NCBI GenBank assembly: GCA_027382625.1
Contig: JAJKFJ010021840.1
Location: 1 to 64,000, forward strand
Length of the DNA stretch: 64,000 nucleotides
Origin: Tetmemena sp. SeJ-2015
Lineage: Eukaryota; Ciliophora; Spirotrichea; Sporadotrichida; Oxytrichidae
Reading direction: 5' to 3'
The position numbers were made by a program, and so were the translations under genes. This document shows, piece after piece, positions 26,863 to 33,769 of this stretch (within the stretch, counting starts at the first letter, position 1; each line of letters starts with the position of its first letter). The notes under the pieces were generated by a model. It worked only from the letters and a program-made list of their open reading frames with translations. It was not told the DNA's origin and ran no database searches.

Positions 26863-28655
26863 AGTGGTGTGAGCGCAATCGAGATAATGTTCTAGATATT
26901 GCCCCACCATTCTAAGATCCTCGTCCAGCACGACTTCTACATCGGAACGAAGATGATTCTCAGAAAATATTTTTAAGTATTTCCAGCTTGACACTCCTAG
27001 CAATCCACTACTTGAGGTCTATGACATAGAGGAGATTGCTAAAATTTGCAAGTAGCACAACGTTTTACTCTCTTTACATAATAATATCCTACTTATGAAG
27101 TATTTAATTTTTATGGGTATGATATTTTCAAGAAGCAAGCCAGAGGTATGGGAGGCTGTTTCTCCTTCCATGTCAAAACGTAAGTGGAATCTTTATTTGC
27201 ACGTCACAGGATATAATCTTCTACTTTAGGGAAGATTTTGACTAAGTTTGTGAGATTCCTAAAATGCTGCACAGACTGGAGTTTGGACCCAGTCTTGGTG
27301 GAGTAGTAACTTCTATCGATAACACCGGAGCAGCATTCAAAATTAAGAATTGATTATGAGTGGTTGGGTTAAATATAAAATGTACTTAACACCTGAGGAT
27401 AACATCAAGCTTGGATTAAGCGTCAACTTATTTAGAATTTCAGTCGGCATTGAGGATCCCAACGACATTATTTAAGTGGATTTCTATAATCAATCTCAAT
27501 TTTAATTATCCATGACTTGGATCTTGCTTTTGAAAAATGGCTTTGATTTTTTAAGTATCTGCATTTATTAAGATTCTTCTCAAATCTATCTCTGATTAAA
27601 GTTCCAAAATTAAGGAGTGTCAAGATAAATCATCTACTCATAATCAGTAAATCGATAGATGATGAATCACAATTGCTTACCTTTACTCCATGGTGCTCTT
27701 TAGATAGAATCTCTCTGATCTTGTCTAAATGATTGTCAGGTGAATCGAGCTCGACTTGCTCTATCCTCTCTTAAATTACCTTATTGAGAAATCCAATTAT
27801 TCATTTAAGCTCACACCACTGTTCACAATCAAACAGTGCTAAGCAAACTCTAGCTTTGCTACCTTAGCCTCTAATTCTTCCAATAGCTTATTTTGAGAAG
27901 AGTTTGCTATGACTTCTGAATTCTCTAGTGCCAATTATGATATAGCAGTATCCATTTGTAGGGATTGCTTGGTTTTTGCTTTTAGTTTAATAAACTTTAG
28001 ATTATATGCCCTTTTAACTTGCCTAAAAGATTTAAAGTAATTAGCAAGCAGACAGATTATTATTCACATTAAAGATTCTTAAAAAAGATGATTTAAATTC
28101 TTTACGCTTAAAACTTTCTTAAATTTGACTTTCTACTAAAGTTATTGCGTTTTACTCGCAGTGGATAACACATTTTGCTCTCCAATCTATCAGGTAAGTA
28201 ATTTCAAAACTCATTGTATCGAAATAAAACTTCAACAAAAATGGGCTATAGAATCCAATTAACCTAGGAGCAGACATCGTGGTGCACTCAACCTCAAAGT
28301 ACATGATGGGGCACTCGGATGCTATGGGAGGAGCTATCTGCACTAACGATGAGGCACTCTTCAGGAAGATGAAGCTCTTAAGATAATGTAAGTGTAGATA
28401 AGATAAGAACAAAGATGAGAAAATTGATTTGACCAAATTCTGATGGAGTTTCTGATAATGTGAAATATAGACTCCGGCTTTGAGCTTCACTCTTTCAACT
28501 TATTCTTGCTCAAGCAGGGACTTCAAACTCTCAGAATCAGGATGAAGAAGATTTGCGCCAATGCTCTCTACATAGCTGAGTGGTTGAGTCGTCATCCAAA
28601 GATCACAAAGGTCAATCATCCCCTCTTACCCACTCACCCTGGCCATGATATTTTC
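26863..28655. CDS. Scrambled PLP-dependent lyase (cystathionine gamma-lyase family), paralogue 1
   Basis: Six segments in germline order 2-4-6-(-3)-(-1)-5. Seg 1: 27,957-27,809 (-). Seg 2: 26,863-26,962 (+). Seg 3: 27,790-27,613 (-). Seg 4: 26,987-27,070 (+). Seg 5: 28,148-28,655 (+). Seg 6: 27,119-27,546 (+, ends TGA). Pointers 1/2 to 5/6 are AGTGGTGTGAGC, TTCTCA, CTTGACACTCCT, CGTTTTACTC and ATGATATTTTC. Each join is in frame, e.g. LIVNSGVS|AIEIMF and HNVLL|AVDNTF. Family motifs: LDTPSNPLLEVYDIEEIAKI; VDNTFCTPIYQ; the PLP-lysine region VVHSTSKYMMGHSDAMGG; LEFGPSLGGV; and the C-terminal ISVGIEDPND. The family cleaves or forms C-S bonds in Cys/Met metabolism; the exact substrate cannot be told. 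Rough length is 370-380 residues. Introns are present in segments 3, 5 and 6. Confidence 0.92.
28194..28251 (+). other. GT-AG intron in segment 5 of lyase paralogue 1
   Basis: CAG|GTAAGT...CTATAG|AAT splits TPIYQ from NPINLGADIVVHS. Paralogues 2 and 3 have introns at the same place, so it predates the duplications. Confidence 0.8.
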
Positions 28656-29021
28656 GCAAATAAATTTAGTTTACTTAAAAATATTTGCTAAAAATTAAAT
28701 GTCATTTTAATAAAAAAATAACTTTTTTTCTTTGGATTTTTTAATATTTAAAGCCAATATGAAAAGAAAATATTAGCTTTTAAATTCATCAAAAGAATAT
28801 TGCCAAAAATTAAAGCAAGGCAAAGTAATTAAAAATAAGATTTTTAGTGATTTTTTAATGAATTGAGGTTTATCTGGTTGAATAAATTACTGTTCATATT
28901 TCTAAGAAATTTTAGATGGATAAATGACTTTTAGATGAAATTAATTAAAATATTCGCTTGCTCTGCTAAATTTATAAAATTGGTCATAACTTTTCTTTAG
29001 TTATTTTTAATGTTTTTGTGT
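28656..29021. other. Spacer between lyase paralogues 1 and 2
   Basis: AT-rich, no gene recognised. Confidence 0.5.
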
Positions 29022-31883: not shown

Positions 31884-31936
31884 AATAAATCTTAAATTTT
31901 AAGATTAGAAATCTTTGTATTAAAATTAGTTTGTTC

Positions 31937-33769
31937 GTTGCTCTGCAGTGTAGATATTCTTGCACCTCCTCCCAAACCATTCAAGAATCATGGTGCAGCA
32001 AGACTTCTACTCAGGTATTAGACATATGCTCAACAAAGTCTATAAATCATGAATACCACTTGTTTTATAATTGTGATTGTATGTTTTAGTAACCCTCTGA
32101 TCTAGATTTACGATCTCTAGGAAATAGCTAAGATCTGCAAAAAGTTCAATGTTCTATTGAGAATAAATGAATTCTATATATCCTCCTCTATATTTCAAAG
32201 ATTATAATTTAAAGCAGGCTCGAGGATACTGTGGCACGTTTTCCTTCTATCTCAAGTCGTAAGTATCACAATCTCTAGCTCCATTTCTCTTTTTGGCTAG
32301 TTTATGTTAACCTTTTCCGTTTAGTTAAAATTACGACGCTTGCTGTGACTTCCCCAAGAATTTGAGACGCTTTGAATATGGAACCAGTCTTGGAGGAATC
32401 GCGAGCACTATCGACAACGTAGGTGGCACTCTAAGAATTTACCACACTCCAGAGGAGAACTTGAGACTTGGCTTCAATGACCAATTCTTCAGAATATCGA
32501 TTGGAGCAGAGAAACTCCAAGATTTGATAAACTATATGCGATTAAAATTGGAATAGGTTTATTTTGTAATAAATTTAGAGGACTTATCATAGGCTCTTGC
32601 CAAAATCCCATCAGAATGATTTAAGCAGATATTTAAACAAACCTTTTGAATTTTAACCAAATGAAATACATTCAATAATTTTCTTGCTAAAAAAAGCTAG
32701 AAAAATCTTCAATTTTATAAGAATCAGAGGGTTGCTTGGTGTTTCAATGTGAATCAACTAAATGATAAATAAGTAGAATCAAAGATGATCATACCTTGAT
32801 ATTCCAAAACAATAATTTTATTTTAGGTTTAATGCACTTTTATTGTTTCTATTTTAAGTGTGTTGATATTGTTTGCCTCTTGAGAGAGCTCGTTCTCAAT
32901 TTGAGCGAGGTATTCCTTTGGATCTAACTTGACCTGATGAAATCTTTGATGGTAGACTTTGGAATTAAATGCTTCTAAATTTAATAACAGAGCAACCACT
33001 ATTCAAGCTCATTCTAATATAAATTATCTGCTTATGAATTATAGTATGATTGACTAGGAAGCAGTGATTAGCTTTCTCAAGTCCAGCAATCTTCTTTTCT
33101 ACTTGTAATTGCGTTGTCTGAGATAAAGGTGACCCCTCAAGTCCCAAATTTTATAATCCACTTGCAATATCTTCCATTTTATTAATTTATGTAGAGAAAT
33201 GATAGATAAGATCTTAATTATATCTTTTATTCCAACTCAATGCACTAATAGAATTAAAAGAAGATTGATTTTCTAGTTCTATTGAGCAGCGACAACACCT
33301 TCTGCACTCCTCTATACTCTGTAAGAAGACATGAGAGAATTACACATCATCTTATAGAATCCTTTGGAACTAGGTGCTGATATCGTTATCCACTCGGCTA
33401 CCAAATATCTAAGCGGCCATTCAGATTGCATGGCTGGTGCAGTTCTTACAAATGACACCAACATCTACTAAAGATCACAAATAATCTCAAACTTAAATTA
33501 TCGTGAATTTAAATTAAAGATGCCTCAGAATAAGAGACGGTAAGAATTATAAGTGTCTAACTGTTGAATAGTGTCTGGACAGGCTTTGAACAACTTCAGC
33601 TTGTTCTTGCTTGAGTAAGGACTGCAAACTTTCAAACTGAGAGTTCAGAAAATAGCAGAGAACAGCATTCAAATTGCTAGATGGCTCTAGTAGCAACCTC
33701 AAATTGAAAAGGTGATGCACCCTCTACTCGAAGATTACCCAGGACATCAGATCTTTATAAAGCAGGCTC
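31937..33769. CDS. Scrambled PLP-dependent lyase, paralogue 3
   Basis: Same scramble again. Seg 1: 33,177-32,988 (-, start [15 protein letters not shown]). Seg 2: 31,937-32,042 (+). Seg 3: 32,960-32,723 (-). Seg 4: 32,091-32,161 (+). Seg 5: 33,276-33,769 (+). Seg 6: 32,211-32,619 (+, TGA at 32,617). Pointers: GTTGCTCTG, AAAGTCTA, AACCCTCTGAT, GTTCTATTGAG, AAAGCAGGCTC. Joins read [61 protein letters not shown] and [15 protein letters not shown]. The PLP-lysine motif is [14 protein letters not shown], and the C-terminus is [14 protein letters not shown] then ISIGAEKLQ. An extra IES in segment 1 (pointer AAT) and one near the 3' end (pointer AGA, about 32,520-32,580) also restore frame. It is the most divergent of the three paralogues. 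Confidence 0.92.

Follow-up and report, generated by a model that had tools for sequence, protein, structure and literature searches.

How does a cell that reassembles its genes from scrambled germline pieces find the correct partner for each piece when several sets of such pieces lie side by side? The question is raised by positions 26863-33769 of a 64,000-nucleotide (nt) stretch of Tetmemena sp. SeJ-2015 DNA (assembly GCA_027382625.1, contig JAJKFJ010021840.1, positions 1 to 64,000; hereafter the window), which is most likely germline (micronuclear) DNA of a ciliate, specifically of a hypotrich. Three adjoining units, termed copy 1 (26863-28655), copy 2 (29022-31883) and copy 3 (31937-33769), each carry one gene's coding blocks arranged as 2-4-6-(-3)-(-1)-5, with blocks 2, 4, 6 and 5 on the plus strand and blocks 3 and 1 inverted. 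Fusing blocks 1 to 6 at the words repeated at their ends (pointers) yields a single reading frame in each copy. The best explanation, to which we give a probability of about 0.88, is that a gene of the PF01053 family was scrambled into six blocks, that the whole unit was then twice duplicated in tandem, and that each unit is unscrambled into a gene of its own. Old tandem copies of this kind are well suited to asking how the correct pieces get joined.

Layout and products of the three units

The order and orientation of the blocks, already proposed for all three copies by a first-pass annotation, hold throughout: all 15 cognate junctions close on a direct repeat and keep the frame. Its description of the copies as having the same six segments does not hold, as seven further putative conventional internal eliminated sequences (IESs) raise the number of segments to 8, 8 and 9 in copies 1, 2 and 3, respectively.

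In copy 1, block 2 (26863-26962, +) is bounded by the 1/2 and 2/3 pointers (26863-26874 and 26957-26962) and block 4 (26987-27070, +) by the 3/4 and 4/5 pointers (26987-26998 and 27061-27070), and block 6 (27119-27546, +) begins with the 5/6 pointer (27119-27129), contains two putative conventional IESs and one intron, and ends in TGA, with the last coding block extending to 27546. The inverted block 3 (27613-27790, -), which has one intron, carries the 3/4 and 2/3 pointers (27613-27624 and 27785-27790), the inverted block 1 (27809-27955, -; the coding part from the ATG) carries the 1/2 pointer (27809-27820), and block 5 (28148-28655, +), with two introns, is bounded by the 4/5 and 5/6 pointers (28148-28157 and 28645-28655).

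With the pointers named in the same sequence, copy 2 consists of block 2 (29022-29419, +; pointers 29022-29030 and 29413-29419), which has a conventional IES inside, block 4 (29441-29523, +; 29441-29452 and 29516-29523), block 6 (29580-30147, +; 29580-29590), which has two introns and one putative conventional IES and ends in TGA with the last coding block to 30147, block 3 (30204-30404, -; 30204-30215 and 30398-30404), block 1 (30435-30568, -; 30435-30443; the coding part from the ATG) and block 5 (31389-31883, +; 31389-31396 and 31873-31883). Copy 3 comprises block 2 (31937-32042, +; 31937-31945 and 32034-32042), block 4 (32091-32161, +; 32091-32101 and 32151-32161), block 6 (32210-32619, +; 32211-32221, one base longer in the repeat-matrix analysis), again with a TGA end and the last coding block to 32619, block 3 (32723-32961, -; 32723-32733 and 32953-32961) with a conventional IES inside, block 1 (32988-33177, -; 32988-32996), whose coding blocks from the ATG, 33049-33177 and 32988-33000, are separated by a conventional IES, and block 5 (33276-33769, +; 33276-33286 and 33759-33769).

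From 1/2 to 5/6, the pointers read AGTGGTGTGAGC, TTCTCA, CTTGACACTCCT, CGTTTTACTC and ATGATATTTTC in copy 1, TGGTGTGAG, CTCAATT, TTGACACTCCTA, TTTTACTC and GATATTTTCAA in copy 2, and GTTGCTCTG, CAAAGTCTA, AACCCTCTGAT, GTTCTATTGAG and AAAGCAGGCTC in copy 3; the 1/2 and 3/4 words given in the first-pass annotation are exact. The last of these, AAAGCAGGCTC, counts as 12 nt, with one extra T, in the repeat-matrix analysis, and was taken one base short in the conservation counts for copy 3. The pointer list of the block order, 1-2-3-4-5-3-2-1-4-5, was reduced by hand to the return word 123/321 and the repeat word 45/45, following the definitions of PMC5940158. The topology is thus an ordinary odd-even pattern in two layers.

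The cognate repeats are 6-12 nt long at all 15 junctions. By comparison, ends taken from different junctions share repeats of 3.5 nt on average and 6 nt at most (180 cells). At nine junctions the cognate repeat was equalled by 0 of 200 shuffles of the ends and at four others by 2-6 of 200, so that 13 of the 15 pointers clearly exceed the shuffles; a chance origin of the repeats is ruled out by the comparison with shuffled ends and unrelated junctions. For the 2/3 pointer, the repeat was equalled by 84 of 200 shuffles in copy 1 and by 21 of 200 in copy 2; since these two match chance length, their support comes from frame and homology and not from repeat length.

Removal of the putative IESs and introns gives frames of 359, 355 and 363 amino acids (aa) for copies 1, 2 and 3, respectively, all ending in TGA. 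The proteins match PF01053 (Cys/Met metabolism pyridoxal phosphate (PLP)-dependent enzymes) with 314, 300.6 and 297.8 bits (E-values of 1e-93, 2e-89 and 1e-88), compared to a curated cut-off of 27. The Pfam, PDB and NCBIfam searches, the synonymous distances (dS) and the per-block figures refer to an earlier 363-residue reading of copy 1, and the pointer counts to the revised reading. Among solved structures, cystathionine gamma-synthases and lyases are the best relatives (4l0o, E 7.2e-62), and none of the listed NCBIfam families (25 of 56; copy 1 only) passed its equivalog cut-off, the best score being 254 bits against a cut-off of 513. The matches start at positions 49, 55 and 51 of the 381 in the profile, leaving the first ~50 positions missing in all three copies, and a search of the window found no credible piece for this N-terminal part. 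The sequence motif with the PLP (catalytic) lysine occurs in all three copies.

In addition, TAA/TAG codons occur in frame 7, 15 and 10 times (copies 1, 2 and 3), with no internal TGA, and 10 of the 29 alignment columns with TAA/TAG have CAA/CAG in another copy. TAA and TAG are glutamine codons and TGA is the stop, a code that hypotrichs share with many other ciliates.

Pointers of copies 1 and 2

Pairing copy 2's left ends with the right ends of copy 1 gives repeats of 12, 6, 13, 9 and 13 nt at the five junctions, compared to 9, 7, 12, 8 and 11 nt when copy 2 is joined to itself, so that four of the five copy-2-to-copy-1 joins have the longer repeat. The reverse pairing, copy 1 left with copy 2 right, gives 10, 4, 11, 8 and 9 nt, compared to 12, 6, 12, 10 and 11 nt for copy 1's own. 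Over both copies and five junctions, the cognate repeats total 98 nt and the cross repeats 95 nt. Repeats in the 20 cross cells between copy 3 and copies 1 and 2 are only 3-7 nt long, close to what unrelated ends share on average (3.5 nt). Copies 1 and 2 are not distinguishable by their pointers. The question of how the cell avoids cross-joining between these two, posed in the first-pass annotation, is therefore a real one, and these totals put a figure on it. As the joints are homologous, cross-joins between copies 1 and 2 would be expected to stay in frame.

The same figures would fit a scheme in which copies 1 and 2 exchange blocks in development, their macronuclear chromosomes become regular mixtures of the two units, and the division of blocks among units given above is partly wrong: cross repeats nearly equal cognate ones, and those from copy 2 left to copy 1 right are mostly the longer. 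Shared or alternative segments are moreover known in Oxytricha, at 69 germline loci, 38 of them scrambled (PMC4684698). However, each unit is self-complete with contiguous blocks, no missing block forces sharing, and copy 3 is excluded by its pointers; we regard such regular mixing as unlikely.

The interchangeable pointers of copies 1 and 2 suggest that the partner is chosen by something longer than the pointer. By analogy with the proposal for Oxytricha, the chooser is most likely a parental template RNA. In Stylonychia and Oxytricha, aberrant joins occur at cryptic repeats, and proofreading and choice by long template RNAs have been proposed; in this proposal the RNAs come from the parental macronucleus and give guidance beyond that of the pointers alone (PMC2394655, PMC5513065). 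A bolder idea, which we hold to be very unlikely, is a common pool in which copies 1 and 2 lend each other blocks, if only for rescue; selection would then also favor compatibility across the two loci and keep their pointers alike. Germline paralogues would then be mutual spare parts, with the pointer words as their shared thread size. Copies 1 and 2 combine interchangeable pointers with coding sequence that differs at 28% of sites, which would make every cross-join recognizable in macronuclear reads, and copy 3, with pointers fitting no other copy, is a built-in control.

Further analysis revealed that the pointer words of copies 1 and 2 are also unusually constant. Their pointer bases are identical at 54 of 57 positions, compared to 714 of 1005 elsewhere (Fisher p 1.2e-5), and where both copies encode the same residue, third codon positions agree in 17 of 18 cases within pointers, compared to 122 of 227 (p 3.7e-4). 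Of 50,000 random placements of the pointer intervals, 10 attained the base count and 51 the third-position fraction, and leaving out one junction at a time gave third-position matches of 13/14 to 15/16. This conservation stops at the pointer word. Coding-side flanks of at most 15 nt match at 20 of 37 third positions of identical codons, which is the background level, and the IES-side flanks, at four junctions with 2/3 left out, are not conserved, matching at 46 of 120 positions, a figure reached by 932 of 2000 shuffled pairings. No pointer excess was found in comparisons with copy 3, either in bases (51/85 versus 532/965 for copies 1-3; 49/81 versus 517/954 for copies 2-3) or in third positions (7/22 versus 59/149 and 9/18 versus 62/151, respectively). 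A second scrambled pair on which to repeat the pointer comparison was sought by self-comparison among the neighboring open reading frame (ORF) pairs, and none was found; those pairs look colinear.

Recent germline gene conversion, instead of pointer constraint, could also have made the pointers of copies 1 and 2 identical, and the longest identical runs do include 23, 17 and 14 nt over pointers, but also 25 and 20 nt away from them. Against it stands the abrupt end of conservation at the word on both the coding and the IES side, and we judge conversion to be very improbable. The constancy may be partly expected as survivorship, because the two repeats of a pointer must match each other: a one-sided mutation shortens the paired repeat, so that the pointers that survive would show an excess of unchanged bases even if the word itself were not selected. 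In a crude simulation with one neutral substitution per site (rates assumed, 4,000 runs each), 6 matching bases survived in 1% of runs for a 12-base-pair (bp) pair and in 3.5% for a 30-bp pair. At these assumed rates, such low survival suggests that the pointers, which persist at all five junctions in both copies, are under constraint.

History of the triplet and its surroundings

Protein identity is 72% between copies 1 and 2 (256/354) and 50% for both copies 1-3 (174/350) and copies 2-3 (172/345), and nucleotide identity is 72% for copies 1-2 and about 55% otherwise. The proportion of synonymous differences (pS) is 0.70 for copies 1-2, corresponding to a corrected distance of about 2.0, and 0.84 and 0.86 for the other pairs, which are saturated beyond correction; the proportion of nonsynonymous differences (pN) is 0.16 for copies 1-2 and 0.34 for each of the other pairs. 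Judged by the synonymous and protein distances, copies 1 and 2 are therefore the younger pair. One or more of the units might have decayed and lack a gene product, but the three full-length frames with the catalytic-lysine motif and a pN far below pS for copies 1-2 make decay highly improbable.

All five scrambled junctions are homologous among the three copies. Pointer midpoints spread over 2.5, 8.5, 14.5, 1.5 and 13 nt from 1/2 to 5/6, placing three of five junctions within 12 nt across the copies, and 0 of 200,000 random placements gave three such junctions (12 gave two). The displacement is largely that of copy 3, whose 2/3 pointer lies at alignment columns 249-257, compared to 242-247 in copy 1 and 244-250 in copy 2, and whose 5/6 pointer lies at columns 813-823, compared to 800-810 and 802-812. 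The shift of the 3/4 pointer in copy 3 had been noticed before, but those of 2/3 and 5/6 had been missed; likewise, the earlier view that pointers have slid since duplication applies mainly to copy 3, as the words have hardly changed between copies 1 and 2. Independent scrambling of three units into one order is contradicted by the homologous breakpoints, the shared inversions and the random placements, has nothing found in its favor, and is scarcely credible.

The simplest history would be that the scramble came first and was followed by two tandem duplications of the whole unit. Five homologous junctions despite protein identities of 72%, 50% and 50% bear out the first-pass claim that the scramble preceded the duplications. 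An unscrambled paralogue, named there as possible counter-evidence, was looked for in the window: neither an unscrambled relative nor any other match to the three proteins was found outside the units at E < 0.1 (best 0.15). In the duplication-and-decay model of Gao et al., as told in PMC9797194, an IES between blocks n-1 and n+1 would resemble block n. No such mark was found by sequence or by length. Lost block copies were sought in the spacers within the units, with no non-block match under E 0.098, and the spacers between blocks 2 and 4 measure 24, 21 and 48 nt, compared to 178, 201 and 239 nt for block 3, and those between blocks 4 and 6 measure 48-56 nt, compared to 494-508 nt for block 5. 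Missing marks are expected of an old locus too, and the model is still compatible with the locus.

The seven conventional IESs, called from homology between the copies, frame and direct repeats (two in copy 1, two in copy 2 and three in copy 3), occupy five sites, a C-terminal one common to all copies and four private ones. At the common site, copy 1 has a 38-bp IES at 27467-27504 (+) with pointer ATTAT (second copy 27505-27509), copy 2 a 175-bp IES at 29934-30108 (+) with pointer AT, the weakest call of the seven, and copy 3 a 42-bp IES at 32527-32568 (+) with pointer ATAAA (second copy 32569-32573); their alignment columns overlap (1063-1067, 1066-1067 and 1066-1070, respectively). The private IESs comprise one of 38 bp in copy 1 (27339-27376, +; pointer AAAAT, second copy 27377-27381), one of 297 bp in copy 2 (29047-29343, +; pointer TTCTAGATA, second copy 29344-29352), and two in copy 3, of 67 bp (32804-32870, -; pointer AATATCAA, copies 32796-32803 and 32863-32870) and 48 bp (33004-33051, -; pointer AAT). 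The word TTCTAGATA stands unbroken in copy 1 at 26890-26898. Two other readings were rejected: a TTAA pointer in copy 1 left four extra residues, and the 5-bp AAAAT repeat gives a better alignment to the other copies; without the IES at the 8-bp repeat, the frame of copy 3 ends after 136 residues, and the putative IES restores it.

Four introns are common to all three copies. Copy 2 has an extra, fifth GT...AG intron of 34 nt (29812-29845, +) where copy 1 has its private IES. This intron splits a lysine codon between its second and third base, and the matching lysine codon of copy 1, as read from the alignment, lies inside the AAAAT pointer of the IES at 27339-27376, which is frame-shifting and lacks GT...AG ends; copy 3 is uninterrupted there. 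One locus thus displays three rates: the positions of scrambled junctions are kept at five of five in all three copies, conventional IES sites are common to all at one of five, and pointer words are retained between copies 1 and 2 and replaced in copy 3.

In the mechanism that we propose, the six-block scramble of the PF01053 enzyme gene would have come first, long ago, and the whole scrambled unit would then have been duplicated twice in tandem. During macronuclear development, each unit would recombine at its five scrambled pointers, with inversion of blocks 3 and 1, a template RNA from the parental macronucleus would pick the joining partner, and the conventional IESs would be cut out; the introns would later be spliced from the RNA, giving three genes. 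Since the duplications, scrambled junctions would have stayed and conventional IESs would have come and gone, and pointer words would have been held in copies 1 and 2 and replaced or moved in copy 3. The sequence itself shows the order of the blocks, the repeats, the restored frames, the ages of the copies and the conservation of the pointers; the joins in the cell, the formation of one gene from each unit and the role of the template are what we infer.

Several points weigh against this explanation. Every join is deduced from the germline DNA. Two pointers, the 2/3 words of copies 1 and 2, are not longer than chance; several conventional IES calls lean on protein homology, as pointers of 2-5 bp are weak alone; and the donor site of copy 3's putative fourth intron is weak. 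The ~50 missing N-terminal profile positions make a further upstream segment outside the model possible. Moreover, Feng et al. report that most position-conserved pointers differ in sequence between Oxytricha and Tetmemena (PMC9797194), unlike those of copies 1 and 2.

Elsewhere in the window, element-like inverted arms of 142 nt, 99% complementary and 108 nt apart (26147-26538), end about 325 bp before copy 1, and a perfect inverted repeat of two 953-nt arms, 81 nt apart (1492-3478), represents a palindromic element or an assembly artefact. Pieces of a dynein heavy chain (DHC_N2, AAA_7, AAA_8, MT and AAA_9) lie at 49042-57376 (+), colinear in four matching ORFs and not visibly scrambled. Two colinear related ORFs, at 8531-9445 and 13413-14327, are 41% identical over 312 aa, and the longer ORF around the first (8129-9586) has no Pfam match. 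The segments 57581-58052 and 63518-64000, the second truncated by the window end, are also related, with up to 88% identity in translation over 131 aa. The repeat region at 20453-21717 is degenerate and strongly skewed toward C over G. No Rfam family scored above threshold, and a scan for C4A4-type telomere repeats that allowed up to 2 mismatches was negative.

Relation to known systems

Two tandem paralogues sharing one scramble have already been published: paralogous chromosomes of Oxytricha trifallax, derived from a 77-kilobase germline tandem duplication, likewise keep one scramble and one chord diagram, with seven scrambled segments (PMC5940158). That pair has two copies with 75% nucleotide similarity and more than 100 mostly unscrambled segments, whereas the present locus has three compact units in which all six main blocks are displaced. 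The topology itself is the same as that of the odd-even loci with repeat and return words described there, words said to account for 96% of scrambled Oxytricha genes or chromosomes (PMC5940158).

Nonscrambled paralogues also conserve the boundaries of macronuclear-destined segments (MDSs), shifted by 0-3 bp, and gain new IESs after duplication, as here, but are not scrambled (PMC4684698). Similarly, the ABCB tandem triplets of Uroleptopsis and Oxytricha have three germline copies of similar IES-MDS structure, without scrambling (PMC10547551). Coincidence of intron and IES has been described between species or strains (PMC1805493, PMC9797194), whereas here it is seen between paralogues in one genome. 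Between Oxytricha and Tetmemena, the positions of scrambled pointers show higher conservation than those of nonscrambled pointers (PMC9797194), and the same trend is seen here. In a literature search that left many subscription papers outside, neither a tandem family of three scrambled copies nor a constraint on pointer words between paralogues was found described. Compared to these systems, what is new here is that the pointers of copies 1 and 2 are measured as both interchangeable and constant, with copy 3 as the control.

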